A stretch of DNA of 64,000 bases, taken from the NCBI RefSeq assembly GCF_014643175.1, contig NZ_BMJH01000001.1:744001-808000 (forward strand), read 5' to 3'. Numbering within the stretch: the stretch's first letter is position 1; every line of letters starts with the position of its first letter. Origin of the DNA: Hoyosella rhizosphaerae (GTDB lineage Bacteria > Actinomycetota > Actinomycetes > Mycobacteriales > Mycobacteriaceae). Shown here one piece after another: positions 40,410-45,417 of this stretch. A program made the translations under genes and the position numbers. The notes beneath the pieces are model-generated. The model saw only the letters and a program-made list of their open reading frames with translations. It did not search any database and was not told the DNA's origin.

Positions 40410-42821
40410 CTAGATCATGTCTTTTGCGCCCAGCCAGCGCAGCGTCGGCCACCCGAGCGCAACCGGCAACCACGTGGTCAGCACGCGATACAACAACACT
40501 GCTGGCACAGCGGTCGCAGCAGGCAAACCAAACGCCACCAGGCCACCAATGAGAACAGCCTCCACTGCGCCAACCCCGCCTGGAGTCGGTGCCGCCGAAG
40601 CGAGTGTGCCGCCAATCATGGTCACGACCGTGACGGTGACAAAAGTTGTGCCACCGCCGAACGCTTCAATACTCGCCCACAACGCCAGGGCCATCCCTAG
40701 AGTCGTCATGGCGCACCCTAAGAAAATGATCGAGAAACGCTGCGGGTCCCGCGCCAAATCGCCCAACTCACGGATGACATCGCGAAGCTGCGGCAGAATC
40801 GAGCGGCCGAGCCAGCGCCGCAAAGCTGGGACCAGCACCGAGACGCCGAAGATCCCCAACGCAACACCGATGATCAAATAAATCACCGTGGGGTCCGGAA
40901 CAATCTGGCGGATCTCGGCAGTTGTACCCGCCATGATTGCGAAGAACACGAGCAAACCCACATGCGTGATCACCTGAACCGACTGCTGCAACGTCACCGC
41001 AGCGGTCGCACGAACTACACCCAAGCCACCTTTTTGCAAGAACCGAACACTAAGCGCGAGCCCACCCACGCCTGCCGGGGTTGTCGTAGCCGCGAACGTA
41101 TTGGCAATCTGCATAATCGCCAGGTTGCGGAAGCTCACTAAACGGTTAGCGCACGCCCACAAAGCCGCAGCGGCACCGATATACGTCAAGCCGGAAATAA
41201 CGAGACCAACAAGCGCCCAAGTCCAGTTGACTGTGCGGAGTTGGTCATAAAACGTCGGAACGGCACTGATAAACGGATATGCGACGTACACGAGACCAAT
41301 CAGCAACGCCAACTGTATCCATTGGTTGCGGGTAAACCGCGTCACCTGTTCTGGCTTGATCTGGTCTGCACCGGTCTGTCTCAACACCTCTTCACGTGCC
41401 GCAACCATAACGGAACCGCAATCAGGCACAGATCGGCGCAACAATGCAGGAATCGCCGCCCGCGTGAGCCGAGCGGACGCAGCGAGAACAGCGTCGGTGC
41501 CCATTGCATTCACCGCGCACCGCACCGCAACCTCATGGCCAAAAATTGAGGTGGTTGTGACCAGAAGCTGAGCTATATCGGAAAGCAACTGGGGCTTCGA
41601 TGCGCCGTACTCCGCAGCGCCAAAACCATCAAACAGCGCCACTCCGTCGTCCATGCGGATTTGCTCCGCGCGAAGGTCGCCGTGCGAGATCTGGTGCGAG
41701 TGCAGCAGCTTCAACGCATTCCAGATGCTTTTGGCCGCTGCTTCGCCGTCAGCGTCCGTGACTATCGAGCCGCGAACTGGGGTTCGGGCGTACAACACCC
41801 AACCACGATCAAGTGCCGCTACCAACAATGGCCGACTACTTGCCACACCCAGATCGTTGATCACAATGCCCATCAAGGCTCGATGTTCTACTGCTCTGCG
41901 CATCGAAACGTGAAGCGGTGCGGTTTCGTTCTCCCGAAACGACAACCACCGCCAGTACTGCCACAAGGCGCGATTGCTTCTCTGGTAGGGGCCATAGAGT
42001 TCGACGATGACTTCGTCGTCACCATGAAACCCACCAACAGGTCCGGTCGGTGTGCTGGTAGCCGCACCAGTGGACGACAACACCAGGGGCCCAGCCCCGG
42101 CCGGGCGCAGCACCGTGAAATGTTCCGTCATATGCCCTTGGCGCCCCAGCACCTTCGCCGCTGTCCGCAAGGGAACTTCCAGGGCTGGTGTCCCCACGAT
42201 GAGGACGGTCAACGCCCCAACGGCCCATCCCACTGAAAGCCCGAGCACCGACCGCGCCGGGATTACCGTACTGGCAACTAGATGAATGGGCACGAAAGCG
42301 AGAAGTAGACCCCACCACCACCGGCGCCACACCTTCGGCAACCACGGGCCAGACACTGTCAACACTGCGGCCAGGCCTGCAATCCACCGTGAGTCAATGA
42401 GAAATTGTGACAAGAAGGAATCGAGCTCAGTAGCGCCCTCGAACGTCAAAGTCGATGTCGTGAGGCCCTCTGGCGTAATGGACAACAAGAGGCCCGCGAC
42501 ATTGCCAGCCACAAAGTACGCCGCAAGCAGACGCCACTGCAGACTCGCTAGAACTCCGATGAGGATCGCGAACGGCAATGCCAAGATAACGAGGCCGTAC
42601 AGCAGAAAAACCAAGTTGGCTTGCGCAGGCGTCAGTACACCCACAATGCCTGAGACTGACTGTTCCAGCGCCGACCATTTGCTGCGAGTGATCTCAGATG
42701 CCGCAATTACCGCACCAAGGACCGACAAAGACAGGGCGACGCGGATGAGATCTGTTGTACGACGGGCACGCGGCTGCAGCAAACTTCCCGAAACCGGGAT
42801 GTCTCGCCCATCGACGCGCAT
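40410..42821 (-). CDS. Fusion of membrane domain, kinase-like domain and LPG-synthase-type flippase domain
   Basis: An 803-residue protein with three parts. Residues about 20-230 hold several membrane helices. About 265-440 form a soluble kinase-like domain with a catalytic-loop match HGDLRAEQI (His 380, Asp 382) and a DFG-like FDGFG (Asp 398); the usual asparagine is replaced by glutamine. About 490-800 are the eight-helix UPF0104/lysylphosphatidylglycerol-synthase membrane domain, which translocates lipids in MprF. No aminoacyl-transferase domain is present. The longer frame to 42875 has no ribosome site; ATG 42821 has AGAGAG six bases upstream. Lipid or lipid-linked phosphorylation coupled with translocation is a hypothesis only. 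Confidence 0.85.
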   Translation of the reverse strand: MRVDGRDIPVSGSLLQPRARRTTDLIRVALSLSVLGAVIAASEITRSKWSALEQSVSGIVGVLTPAQANLVFLLYGLVILALPFAILIGVLASLQWRLLAAYFVAGNVAGLLLSITPEGLTTSTLTFEGATELDSFLSQFLIDSRWIAGLAAVLTVSGPWLPKVWRRWWWGLLLAFVPIHLVASTVIPARSVLGLSVGWAVGALTVLIVGTPALEVPLRTAAKVLGRQGHMTEHFTVLRPAGAGPLVLSSTGAATSTPTGPVGGFHGDDEVIVELYGPYQRSNRALWQYWRWLSFRENETAPLHVSMRRAVEHRALMGIVINDLGVASSRPLLVAALDRGWVLYARTPVRGSIVTDADGEAAAKSIWNALKLLHSHQISHGDLRAEQIRMDDGVALFDGFGAAEYGASKPQLLSDIAQLLVTTTSIFGHEVAVRCAVNAMGTDAVLAASARLTRAAIPALLRRSVPDCGSVMVAAREEVLRQTGADQIKPEQVTRFTRNQWIQLALLIGLVYVAYPFISAVPTFYDQLRTVNWTWALVGLVISGLTYIGAAAALWACANRLVSFRNLAIMQIANTFAATTTPAGVGGLALSVRFLQKGGLGVVRATAAVTLQQSVQVITHVGLLVFFAIMAGTTAEIRQIVPDPTVIYLIIGVALGIFGVSVLVPALRRWLGRSILPQLRDVIRELGDLARDPQRFSIIFLGCAMTTLGMALALWASIEAFGGGTTFVTVTVVTMIGGTLASAAPTPGGVGAVEAVLIGGLVAFGLPAATAVPAVLLYRVLTTWLPVALGWPTLRWLGAKDMI

Positions 42822-42946
42822 TGTCAGCTCTCTCGCCCCTAGTTCGTGGCCGCGATCACGACCAGACCACAACATATCGCGTACATACGTCTAAGAGCTG
42901 CCTATCCACGCGGGTTGGGTGGAATGCCCAAGTCGCCAATGCCCCC

Positions 42947-42971
42947 AGTAGCTATTCCGAGTAGCTATTCC
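42947..42971. repeat. 13-bp tandem duplication at a stop codon
   Basis: AGTAGCTATTCCG at 42947 is followed by AGTAGCTATTCC at 42960. The copies span the TAG stop of the cupredoxin gene on the minus strand, so the final codons and stop are repeated just after the gene. The pattern matches that at the PP2C stop. Confidence 0.85.
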
Positions 42972-43405
42972 ACGATCACTGTTGCGACCATCCGCGGGTG
43001 ATAGAAGCACACGTAGGTGTAGGTGCCGGGTTCGGTGAAAGTGCGCGCATAAGTGTCGCCTTGTGTCATATCGCCTGATTCGACACCATCGTCAAAGTCG
43101 ACGGTGTGCAGAGAGTTGTCTTGTTGCACCCAAGTTATGGTCGAACCCCGCGGCACGGTGATATCACCTGGGGTAAATCGAAACTCCGCTATATCGATGG
43201 TGCGTTGAACGGGAGCAGGCGAAGTTGTTGCAGGTGCCGTTGTTGGTTGTGCAGTGGACGGTTGTGCAGTGGACGGTTGTGCTTCCTCGGTCGTCACTGG
43301 TGAGCCTATTCCTGTGCTCTCCGACTCTGGGTCTTGCGCGAATGTTGCACATCCTGCGGCGACAATTGCGGCGGATACGAATACTGCTGAGAGGGTCTTA
43401 CGCAT
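42965..43405 (-). CDS. Cupredoxin-domain lipoprotein
   Basis: A 146-residue exported copper protein. The lipobox VAAGC puts the lipidated cysteine at 19; a Thr/Pro/Gln-rich linker (30-66) leads to a plastocyanin-like domain with type-1 copper ligands in order: His 100 (NSLHTVDF), Cys 133, His 136 and Met 139 (YVCFYHPRM). Electron transfer or copper storage on the outer face of the membrane is expected. ATG 43405 has GGAG seven bases upstream. It is the last gene of the operon with the sortase and the helical-bundle protein, 26 bases after the sortase stop. Confidence 0.92.
   Translation of the reverse strand: MRKTLSAVFVSAAIVAAGCATFAQDPESESTGIGSPVTTEEAQPSTAQPSTAQPTTAPATTSPAPVQRTIDIAEFRFTPGDITVPRGSTITWVQQDNSLHTVDFDDGVESGDMTQGDTYARTFTEPGTYTYVCFYHPRMVATVIVE
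43246..43282. repeat. 15-bp tandem repeat in the cupredoxin linker
   Basis: GTTGTGCAGTGGACG is present twice (43246 and 43261) with a seven-base third start. It encodes the repeated AQPST units of the linker between lipid anchor and copper domain, so linker length is probably variable between strains. Confidence 0.9.
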
Positions 43406-43431
43406 GGTGATACTCCAGTGCAACGGGTACC

Positions 43432-44049
43432 TCACTCTGCGAGTGAGGCAAAAGCAATGATGTTGTCGCGGTAGCTACGTTCACGCTGGTCGAAGTCGCC
43501 ACCGCACGTAATCAGCCGCAATTCCGGTGTGGTCGACGGAAGGTAGACGGCTTCGGTGGGGAATTCGTCTTTCGAGTGCTGTTCTACTCGGGTAACGACG
43601 AAGCGGAGGGTTTCCCCGGATTCGGTGGTAATAGTGACATCGTCGCCGGGATTAAGTTCATTGAGTCGGTAGAACACATCCGGTGCGATGTGGGAATCTA
43701 CGTGTCCAAGTATTGCTGCCGGTCCTGATTCTCCAGGCTTCGCTCCGCCGTTGAACCAGCTGATGTCACCAAAGTCGGGGACTTCGAGTGTGCGATCCGG
43801 GTTCAATCCCGTGTGGGTCAGTGGTCCGTCGATGTCGATTGCGGGGATGCTGATGCCGACTGGTGGTGATACTTGCCGTTGCTGCCTGGTCGACTGGAAA
43901 CCTCGGACAGTATCGATGTTCGGAGTTGTGGAGATTATGTCGGACGCTATTGGTGGTTGTGAGGTGGGGCTCTCTGTTGCCGTGCCGCACCCGCTGACCA
44001 GCAAGATGCCCGCGATCAGCGCTGCGAATAGCCGGTATGTGACAGTCAT
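43432..44049 (-). CDS. Class F-type sortase lipoprotein
   Basis: A 205-residue exported transpeptidase-fold protein. The catalytic triad residues are visible: His 116 in ILGHVDSH, Cys 182 in LITCGGDF and Arg 194 in RSYRDN. The N-terminus carries a lipobox LVSGC (Cys 21), so it appears lipid-anchored instead of held by a membrane helix. Length and the fairly loose N-terminal linker are those of actinobacterial class F sortases. No protein with an LPxTG-like sorting signal is encoded in this window, so its substrate is unknown. It lies between the cupredoxin and the helical-bundle gene in one operon. Confidence 0.9.
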   Translation of the reverse strand: MTVTYRLFAALIAGILLVSGCGTATESPTSQPPIASDIISTTPNIDTVRGFQSTRQQRQVSPPVGISIPAIDIDGPLTHTGLNPDRTLEVPDFGDISWFNGGAKPGESGPAAILGHVDSHIAPDVFYRLNELNPGDDVTITTESGETLRFVVTRVEQHSKDEFPTEAVYLPSTTPELRLITCGGDFDQRERSYRDNIIAFASLAE

Positions 44050-44136
44050 AACTCCCCCGGGGTTGAACTGCTGGTGACACGAAGTGTGTGGCGGCGTGCC
44101 ACCAGCAGGTCAGTAGTGGTGTTTGCCTAACGCTTG

Positions 44137-45417
44137 TTAGCGTGCGGCACCACCGGCTCCTGTTTCGACGCCACCTTCGGGCATTCCGTCACCCATGAAG
44201 GCAACGATGCCTCCCGCGAGGGCTTGGGCGGTGTCGTACATGTGGTTGTAGGCGTGGTAGGCCGACCGGTACGCGGCGGTGTAGTCCTCCGCGTGATAGG
44301 CGTCTACCTGTGCGACGAGGTCATCGACGTGTTTTTGCAGACCATCAGCAACTACATCGGCGGGGATGTTGCCGTTGGAGGCGGTGTCGAGGAACTGGGA
44401 GAAGTCGTCGCGGTATTGGCTTAGCCTGCGAAGTGCGGCCTCTTGACCCTGCTCGTCTTCTTCTGCAACTGCGACGGTGTACTGGACGAAGAAGTCAATG
44501 TGGTCGGCCCACATTTCCATGAATGCTTGTCCACCTTCGGCACCAAATACACTGCTGATCGATGCGGTGAGATCTTGGGTGTTGGCATCGAGTGCACCTG
44601 CAAGTGCTGTGAAGTCGTCGCGGCCGGTCACCCCTGATCGCATGGCTTGCACGGCAAGTTGGGCGTGTTCGCCGAGTTGCTGCCCGAGCCCTGACCGAAG
44701 GTCGATGGCGGAACTTTCAAGCGGTCCGCTGAATCCTTCTTGTGAAGCGACTATTGCACCGGCGAGGCCCTGTGCTGTTCCAAACATGTGGGCATACGCT
44801 TCACGAGTCTGGTCAGTGGCCACCGTGAAATCACCGTTGGCGTAGGCGCGGACTTGTTCAACGAGTTGATTGACGTGCATCTGTAGCAGGTCAGCAACTG
44901 CGTTGGCGGGAAGTTCTCCGTCTGTTGCGGTTTCGAGGAATCCGCTGAAGTCGGCCCGGTATTGGTCAAGCCGAGCGAGTGCTTGGTCTTGTGCGTCCTG
45001 GTCGTCTTCTGCCAGCCCTACAGTGAATTGCACGAAGAAGTCGATGTGGTCGCTCCACAATCCGTTAAACGCATCCGCACCGTCGTCGCCGTAAACTAGC
45101 CGGATAGATTCGGTGAGGTCATCGGTGTTTTGGCCCAGCGATGCGGCGGCGGCTTCGAAATCGGGTTGTCCCGCGATGCCAGCACGCATAGCTTCGACGG
45201 CAAGTAGCGCGTGGTGGCCAAGTTGCCGTTCGAGAATGATGCGTAATTCTTCAGCAGAAACGTCGCTACTTTGTGTGAGTTCGATGCTGTATGAAATTTG
45301 CCCGCGATCTGTGCTCGCGACATTGCCGACGGACGTGGTTCCGATTGTGACGACGCCTCCGGCAAGGACCCCTGCTGCGAGCAGAGCGGTGAGTTGGTTT
45401 TTGGTTACCTTGAGCAT
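44137..45417 (-). CDS. Exported protein with two tandem four-histidine helical domains
   Basis: A 426-residue exported protein (signal or anchor helix about 8-30). Two copies of a helical domain, about 56-226 and 239-406, are offset by exactly 182 residues. Each has four conserved histidines: 69/251 (LGxHAxLAVxAMR), 124/306 (DHIDFFVQ), 181/363 (HVxxLVxQV) and 210/392 (HMxxTAQxLAG), with acidic neighbours. The pattern suggests a four-helix bundle with a metal site per domain. I cannot give an established name; related sequences are often labelled loosely as copper-amine-oxidase-like without such a fold. There is no sorting signal; the tail is Gly/Ala-rich. First gene of the operon with sortase and cupredoxin. 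ATG 45417 has GGAG upstream. Confidence 0.82.
   Translation of the reverse strand: MLKVTKNQLTALLAAGVLAGGVVTIGTTSVGNVASTDRGQISYSIELTQSSDVSAEELRIILERQLGHHALLAVEAMRAGIAGQPDFEAAAASLGQNTDDLTESIRLVYGDDGADAFNGLWSDHIDFFVQFTVGLAEDDQDAQDQALARLDQYRADFSGFLETATDGELPANAVADLLQMHVNQLVEQVRAYANGDFTVATDQTREAYAHMFGTAQGLAGAIVASQEGFSGPLESSAIDLRSGLGQQLGEHAQLAVQAMRSGVTGRDDFTALAGALDANTQDLTASISSVFGAEGGQAFMEMWADHIDFFVQYTVAVAEEDEQGQEAALRRLSQYRDDFSQFLDTASNGNIPADVVADGLQKHVDDLVAQVDAYHAEDYTAAYRSAYHAYNHMYDTAQALAGGIVAFMGDGMPEGGVETGAGGAAR

Follow-up and report, generated by a model that had tools for sequence, protein, structure and literature searches.

Class F sortases are described as having an unknown physiological role, and Actinoplanes showed no phenotype when four of its class F genes were deleted (PMC13251363). 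The systems closest to the locus described here are pairs formed by such a sortase (NCBIfam model NF033748) and a substrate carrying the GVDTG_CTERM sorting signal (NF058571). Our locus resembles these pairs in that its sortase belongs to the class F model, in its substrate-then-sortase gene order, and in a P.GG..TG.GG motif such as is found beside other class F sortases. It differs from them in that the candidate substrate, a two-domain helical histidine protein referred to below as HB, ends after the motif with no hydrophobic or Arg-rich tail, and in that many HB homologues are N-terminally lipid-anchored. A third gene encodes a blue copper protein that shares the full type-1 ligands of amicyanin and plastocyanin-type proteins, as well as amicyanin's short C-x2-H-x2-M loop; unlike these, it is an actinobacterial lipoprotein, below the cut-off of the amicyanin equivalog. 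Finally, RefSeq gives the name copper amine oxidase to proteins of Planococcus and further halophilic Bacillota that belong to the HB family; they share its two His-bearing domains and often have a class F sortase alongside, but have kept a cleavable signal peptide as well as the membrane tail at the C-terminus.

We analyzed a window of 64,000 nucleotides from Hoyosella rhizosphaerae, a salt-loving actinobacterium. HB belongs to a family of envelope proteins with His sites that is conserved across phyla, widespread, and unnamed, apart from those members that carry the copper amine oxidase name in RefSeq. A specific C-terminal motif links this family to class F sortase. Overall, the data are best explained if HB is a metalloprotein located outside the cytoplasm and acts as a dedicated class F sortase substrate, a reading to which we assign a probability of about 0.6. 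The role of a class F sortase would be directly testable here, because a single small unit combines a lone sortase with one candidate substrate and a partner that is likely metal-related.

Organization and conservation of the gene trio

The open reading frames of HB, the sortase, and the cupredoxin confirmed the predicted arrangement of three minus-strand genes, separated by gaps of 87 and 26 bases (Table 1). A GGAG-like sequence was observed ahead of each of the three start codons, and no terminator-like site was found between the three genes on the minus strand. The genome assembly (3.54 Mb) is Lolliginicoccus-like, and the nearest HB relatives in the locus set were those of Lolliginicoccus species (78, 77, and 76% identical).

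Table 1. Features of the HB locus, with positions in the window.
Feature	Position	Strand	Description
HB, first gene of the unit	44137..45417	(-)	Exported two-domain helical His protein; 426 aa
HB N-terminal stretch (residues 8-29)	45331..45396	(-)	Hydrophobic, signal peptide or signal-anchor, no Cys; from sequence
HB domain 1 (residues 52-232)	44722..45264	(-)	Five helices; H69, H124, H181, H210
HB domain 2 (residues 233-411)	44185..44721	(-)	Five helices; H251, H306, H363, H392
HB sorting motif (residues 413-423)	44149..44181	(-)	PEGGVETGAGG, class F (GVDTG-type); from sequence and profile match
Class F sortase lipoprotein, second gene	43432..44049	(-)	205 aa; Cys21 lipobox; H116, C182, R194
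Lipoprotein cupredoxin, third gene	42965..43405	(-)	146 aa; amicyanin-like loop C-x2-H-x2-M

The grouping of the three genes proposed in the original prediction was also found elsewhere. Eleven actinobacterial loci from several genera share the HB-sortase-cupredoxin order, which is common to the whole clade of the window protein, comprising Lolliginicoccus, Hoyosella, Haloechinothrix, and MAGs filed as Actinophytocola and Nitriliruptorales. Beyond the complete trio, HB occurs with the sortase in Bacillota, and with the cupredoxin but no sortase in many other Actinomycetota. The genes flanking the trio are not conserved, with dinB kept within the genus only, which favours the trio as the unit. 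The membrane-protein gene directly downstream of the cupredoxin (40410-42875, minus strand) was not found in the other loci fetched. Its product has 821 aa, with an LPG_synthase_TM domain that covers its C-terminal part only (residues 519-808); its middle part reads like a degenerate kinase-type HGDLR motif.

Histidine sites of HB and the linked cupredoxin

A search of genome contigs revealed HB relatives at 382 loci. The predicted histidine pairs (69/251, 124/306, 181/363, and 210/392) were all present, exactly 182 residues apart, and each of these eight residues was retained by at least 84 out of 86 relatives, whereas other HB histidines varied. In the 246 HB domains of the fetched loci, all four histidines were kept in 219, H69 and Asn97 (domain 1 numbering) were all but invariant, and a Met next to the fourth histidine was conserved in 213.

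A known family for HB was rejected, with no match in Pfam, NCBIfam, PHROGs, or PDB sequences; likewise, no phage homologue was found, and the PDB sequence search returned no solved relative. The AlphaFold2 model of full-length HB (pLDDT 83.7) contained five predicted helices per domain, and domain 2 modelled alone reached a pLDDT of 92.2. Structure searches gave, among the listed matches, a best E value of 0.12-0.14 with Foldseek, and with VIA a best Z of 10.3 (4.0 Å over 178 residues), corresponding to a designed bundle. The listed structural matches were thus at the level of a generic helical bundle, with no clear match for the fold.

In the predicted model, H124, H181, and H210 sit in three different helices. 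The H181 equivalent was also missing in 9 out of the 12 domains without the H124 equivalent, versus 2 out of the 234 domains that kept it. Because these three histidines tend to vanish together, they seem to behave as one shared site, implying one metal site per HB domain; H69 may be a structural residue or a fourth ligand. Histidine losses were observed in several separate lineages (the L100 group, L115/L116, L147, and L150/L151). Some tandem HB proteins have a first domain lacking three of the four histidines (L100, L102, L108, L115, and L116) or four (L150), which suggests that one metal site is enough in those proteins.

The cupredoxin is lipid-anchored (lipobox AAGC, Cys19) and carries the full type-1 ligand set that had been predicted (H100, C133, H136, and M139), conserved in 38 out of 38 relatives. 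Its score against the Pfam Copper-bind family (43 bits) exceeded the cut-off of 21.2, while that against the amicyanin equivalog TIGR02657 (50 bits) fell below the cut-off of 110.2, with the type-1 ligands nevertheless present. No amine dehydrogenase was noticed among the genes neighbouring the cupredoxin in the window. We then counted 50 complete actinobacterial HB genes, 21 with and 29 without the C-terminal motif, scored as TGxGG. A cupredoxin was located within 1 kb of HB in 11 of the 21 motif-bearing loci and 19 of the 29 motif-less ones, either upstream or downstream, and usually on the same strand. As this linkage exists with or without the sortase, HB and the cupredoxin appear to be a recurrent pair, and the sortase an added anchoring module.

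Copper, heme, or iron handling had originally been proposed. Copper is the option favoured by the cupredoxin linkage, and heme and iron, as well as zinc, stay in contention. HB is probably an envelope metalloprotein, with copper as the leading candidate: judged from gene linkage and ligand type, the odds that the metal is copper are about even. In the mechanism that we propose, the three-His site of each domain (H124/H181/H210 and H306/H363/H392) would most likely bind copper. The lipoprotein cupredoxin, as the functional partner of HB, would either deliver this copper or exchange electrons with it. It is conceivable, and we hold this with reserve, that HB has heme, iron, or zinc as its ligand and not copper, or that its histidines form a catalytic site, with the cupredoxin as electron donor to HB. 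Several metals, and also heme, can be accommodated by three-His sites and by helical bundles, HB is without a solved relative, and Bacillota HB rarely adjoins a cupredoxin, one being found nearby in only 1 of 74 loci. Copper is nonetheless the metal that better fits the conserved Met beside the fourth histidine (213 of 246 domains), and the cupredoxin linkage recurs in many actinobacterial families, whether or not a sortase is present.

A tail-less C-terminal motif and the adjacent class F sortase

The original prediction saw no LPxTG-type substrate in the window. This was incorrect, as HB, the product of the first gene of the trio, ends in a class F sorting motif (C-terminal sequence ...MGDGMPEGGVETGAGGAAR). 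HB stops three residues past PEGGVETGAGG, i.e., eight residues counting the motif Thr, with no hydrophobic or charged tail. The GVDTG_CTERM model accordingly aligned to profile positions 1-14 of 44 only, with 16.9 bits versus a cut-off of 29: the signature motif is present in HB, while the hydrophobic segment, the basic tail, and a score above the cut-off are not. HB is therefore not filed as a member of this family, failing as it does on the tail, but its C-terminus very probably works like a GVDTG_CTERM signal. In its own genome, it was the only match to this model at E < 1e-3 (E 9e-4), and the LPXTG_anchor scan gave no match better than E 0.11, so that the two whole-genome scans yielded no other convincing sortase substrate. 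A single sortase match was found in the whole genome. The literature that we searched contained nothing on sortase substrates that are tail-less or lipoproteins, nor on GVDTG.

A tail missed through a frameshift or a wrong gene end was considered and rejected, because the other reading frames within the window contain no hidden tail (maximum hydropathy 0.73) and because four loci leave no room for one, the HB stop being overlapped there by the sortase start codon. Moreover, congeners and tail-less relatives of several families end alike. All 21 actinobacterial motif-bearing HB proteins end 8-13 residues after the motif Thr (counting Thr), without a membrane tail. The P.GG..TG.GG motif was kept in 20 of these 21, in proteins otherwise as little as ~33% identical.

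The sortase corresponded to the predicted lipid-anchored, class-F-type enzyme, with a VSGC lipobox and intact H116, C182, and R194, and scored 172.7 bits against NF033748 (cut-off 166). Among relatives, the catalytic His was found in 77 out of 77 and the Cys in 76 out of 77 (one gap); the Arg column aligned uncleanly. In Actinomycetota, a class F sortase gene was located immediately downstream of HB in 21 out of 21 loci with the motif and in 0 out of 29 without it. In a tree of 73 HB proteins, the motif changed state about three times, so this split corresponds to few independent events; for the same reason, a Fisher test of motif versus sortase was dropped, the counts being non-independent. 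The independent contrasts agreed or showed no difference, and were too few for a significant sign test. The locus L094, sister to the 11-row window clade, has neither motif nor sortase but has kept the cupredoxin.

We also surveyed 30 class F sortase loci in Actinomycetota. Eighteen non-HB neighbours of these sortases carried a PxGGxxTGxG[GS]-like C-terminal motif, all with a membrane tail; this is thus what class F signals ordinarily look like in Actinomycetota, and HB has only the front half of such a signal. The GVDTG model covered nearly end to end all seven of the non-HB substrates scanned, only one of which reached the cut-off. The sole tail-less substrate in the survey was an HB. The suggestion that the sortase acts on the helical protein by an unrecognised signal is thus strongly supported, this signal being a GVDTG-type class F motif minus its membrane tail. 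From sequence and gene order, we consider it very likely that the sortase, whose gene directly follows that of HB, has HB as its dedicated substrate.

According to the proposed mechanism, HB would be exported by Sec, and the sortase lipoprotein, at the outer face of the membrane, would recognise PEGGVETGAGG at the HB C-terminus and cut between Thr419 and Gly420. The peptide GGVETGAGGAAR is a predicted substrate, cut between Thr and Gly. Following this putative cleavage, HB would be passed on to an amino group, with peptidoglycan as the most likely acceptor; we give covalent wall attachment an even chance. It is unlikely, yet deserves consideration, that the sortase processes HB without attaching it to peptidoglycan, either trimming its last residues by hydrolysis or joining it to another protein or amine. 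A tail-less substrate needs no release from the membrane, and the leaving peptide would comprise only seven residues in the window protein. Set against this, the other substrates with the same motif show the standard wall-sorting layout, which makes wall anchoring the default expectation.

Membrane anchoring and the Bacillota relatives

The Bacillota HB proteins exhibited the classical layout, with MPxTGxGG followed by a hydrophobic segment and then Lys/Arg. The motif was present in 74 out of 74, the membrane tail in 71, and an adjacent sortase in 46; in the checked genomes without an HB-adjacent sortase, a clear class F sortase was found elsewhere in 16 out of 18. In Salinicoccus, three HB proteins (L040, L045, and L073) lack the tail and part of the motif, lost independently of Actinomycetota, and have the sortase gene about 1.5 kb upstream; others (L038 and L042) keep the tail.

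Among the 21 tail-less actinobacterial HB proteins, 11 carried a lipobox (ten detected by script, and L139, with LLAGC, by eye) and four a long N-terminal hydrophobic segment (L100, L102, L103, and L108). Five, of the window type, had a shorter hydrophobic N-terminus with no Cys, and L150 fitted no clear class. The window protein and its nearest kin are without the lipobox of sister lineages. No lipobox was observed in the 74 Bacillota proteins or in 18 tail-bearing class F controls. Loss of the C-terminal anchor thus appears to be accompanied by an N-terminal one in most cases; the signal of the window protein may be cleaved.

Work on C. difficile (PMC5569036) showed that sorting there depends on membrane association, for which both the hydrophobic region and the charged tail are needed. 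An alternative anchor for HB is therefore a natural inference; the same requirement also means that tail-less HB might simply be secreted, which counts against its being a substrate. In Bacillota, the C-terminal tail would keep HB next to the sortase, while in Actinomycetota the holding would probably be done by the N-terminal anchor. This anchor would be a lipid in many of the relatives, in others a transmembrane segment, and in the window protein the hydrophobic N-terminus. HB would then span from membrane to wall. That the N-terminal anchor replaces the C-terminal tail is a tentative proposal. More doubtful still is the full scheme, in which Actinomycetota evolved tail-less sortase substrates and HB, held N-terminally in the membrane and joined C-terminally to the wall by its dedicated class F sortase, acts as a metal-binding membrane-to-wall staple. 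If true, the hydrophobic tail, taken as defining for sorting signals, would be replaceable by an N-terminal anchor, and HB would be a natural exception to the rule of a membrane tail. Braun-type lipoproteins carry a lipid at the N-terminus and a wall link at the C-terminus. HB can be compared with them only in how it would work, being membrane-held at one end and possibly wall-held at the other; they differ in using an L,D-transpeptidase instead of a sortase, and the window protein has no lipid anchor.

That the motif is a mere relic, the tail having been lost in an actinobacterial ancestor so that HB is secreted or lipid-anchored while the sortase acts on a different protein or is itself disappearing, seems improbable: the C. 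difficile requirement for the tail (PMC5569036) and the Salinicoccus proteins without both tail and strict motif would suit it, but P.GG..TG.GG was kept in 20 of 21 tail-less proteins down to ~33% identity, always with a sortase, HB relatives without the motif were also without the sortase, and the genome itself yielded no other substrate candidate.

Regarding annotation, no copper amine oxidase domain was matched in Pfam or NCBIfam by the window protein or by the Bacillota relatives scanned (one with Pfam, two with NCBIfam). The name is therefore unsupported in those scanned, and its use for Planococcus HB is probably a misannotation that has spread. Two Planococcus genes so named in RefSeq are plasmid-borne (L010, 5314-6681; L011, 5893-7254). 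A single class F sortase gene in Jeotgalibacillus (L055, 2745-5960) is preceded by a tandem of two HB genes, each of which encodes a sorting signal.

Bacillota HB genes were preceded by an ECF sigma factor in 50 of the 74 loci and by an RskA-type anti-sigma factor in 48, a pairing that makes HB look like the output of an envelope-stress switch. Examples include L013 (4548-6384) and, among the Bacillota loci L010-L093, L060 (3614-6350). No such pair was found around the window HB in the bases searched. A SigK/RskA-copper link was set aside, being only indirect in the published account. A single-domain, plasmid-encoded HB of Methylocystis adjoins an ECF sigma gene of the same broad kind. Halophiles or alkaliphiles make up most of the named HB carriers (Halobacillus, Salinicoccus, Salimicrobium, Haloechinothrix, and others), which may point to a connection between HB distribution and saline habitats.
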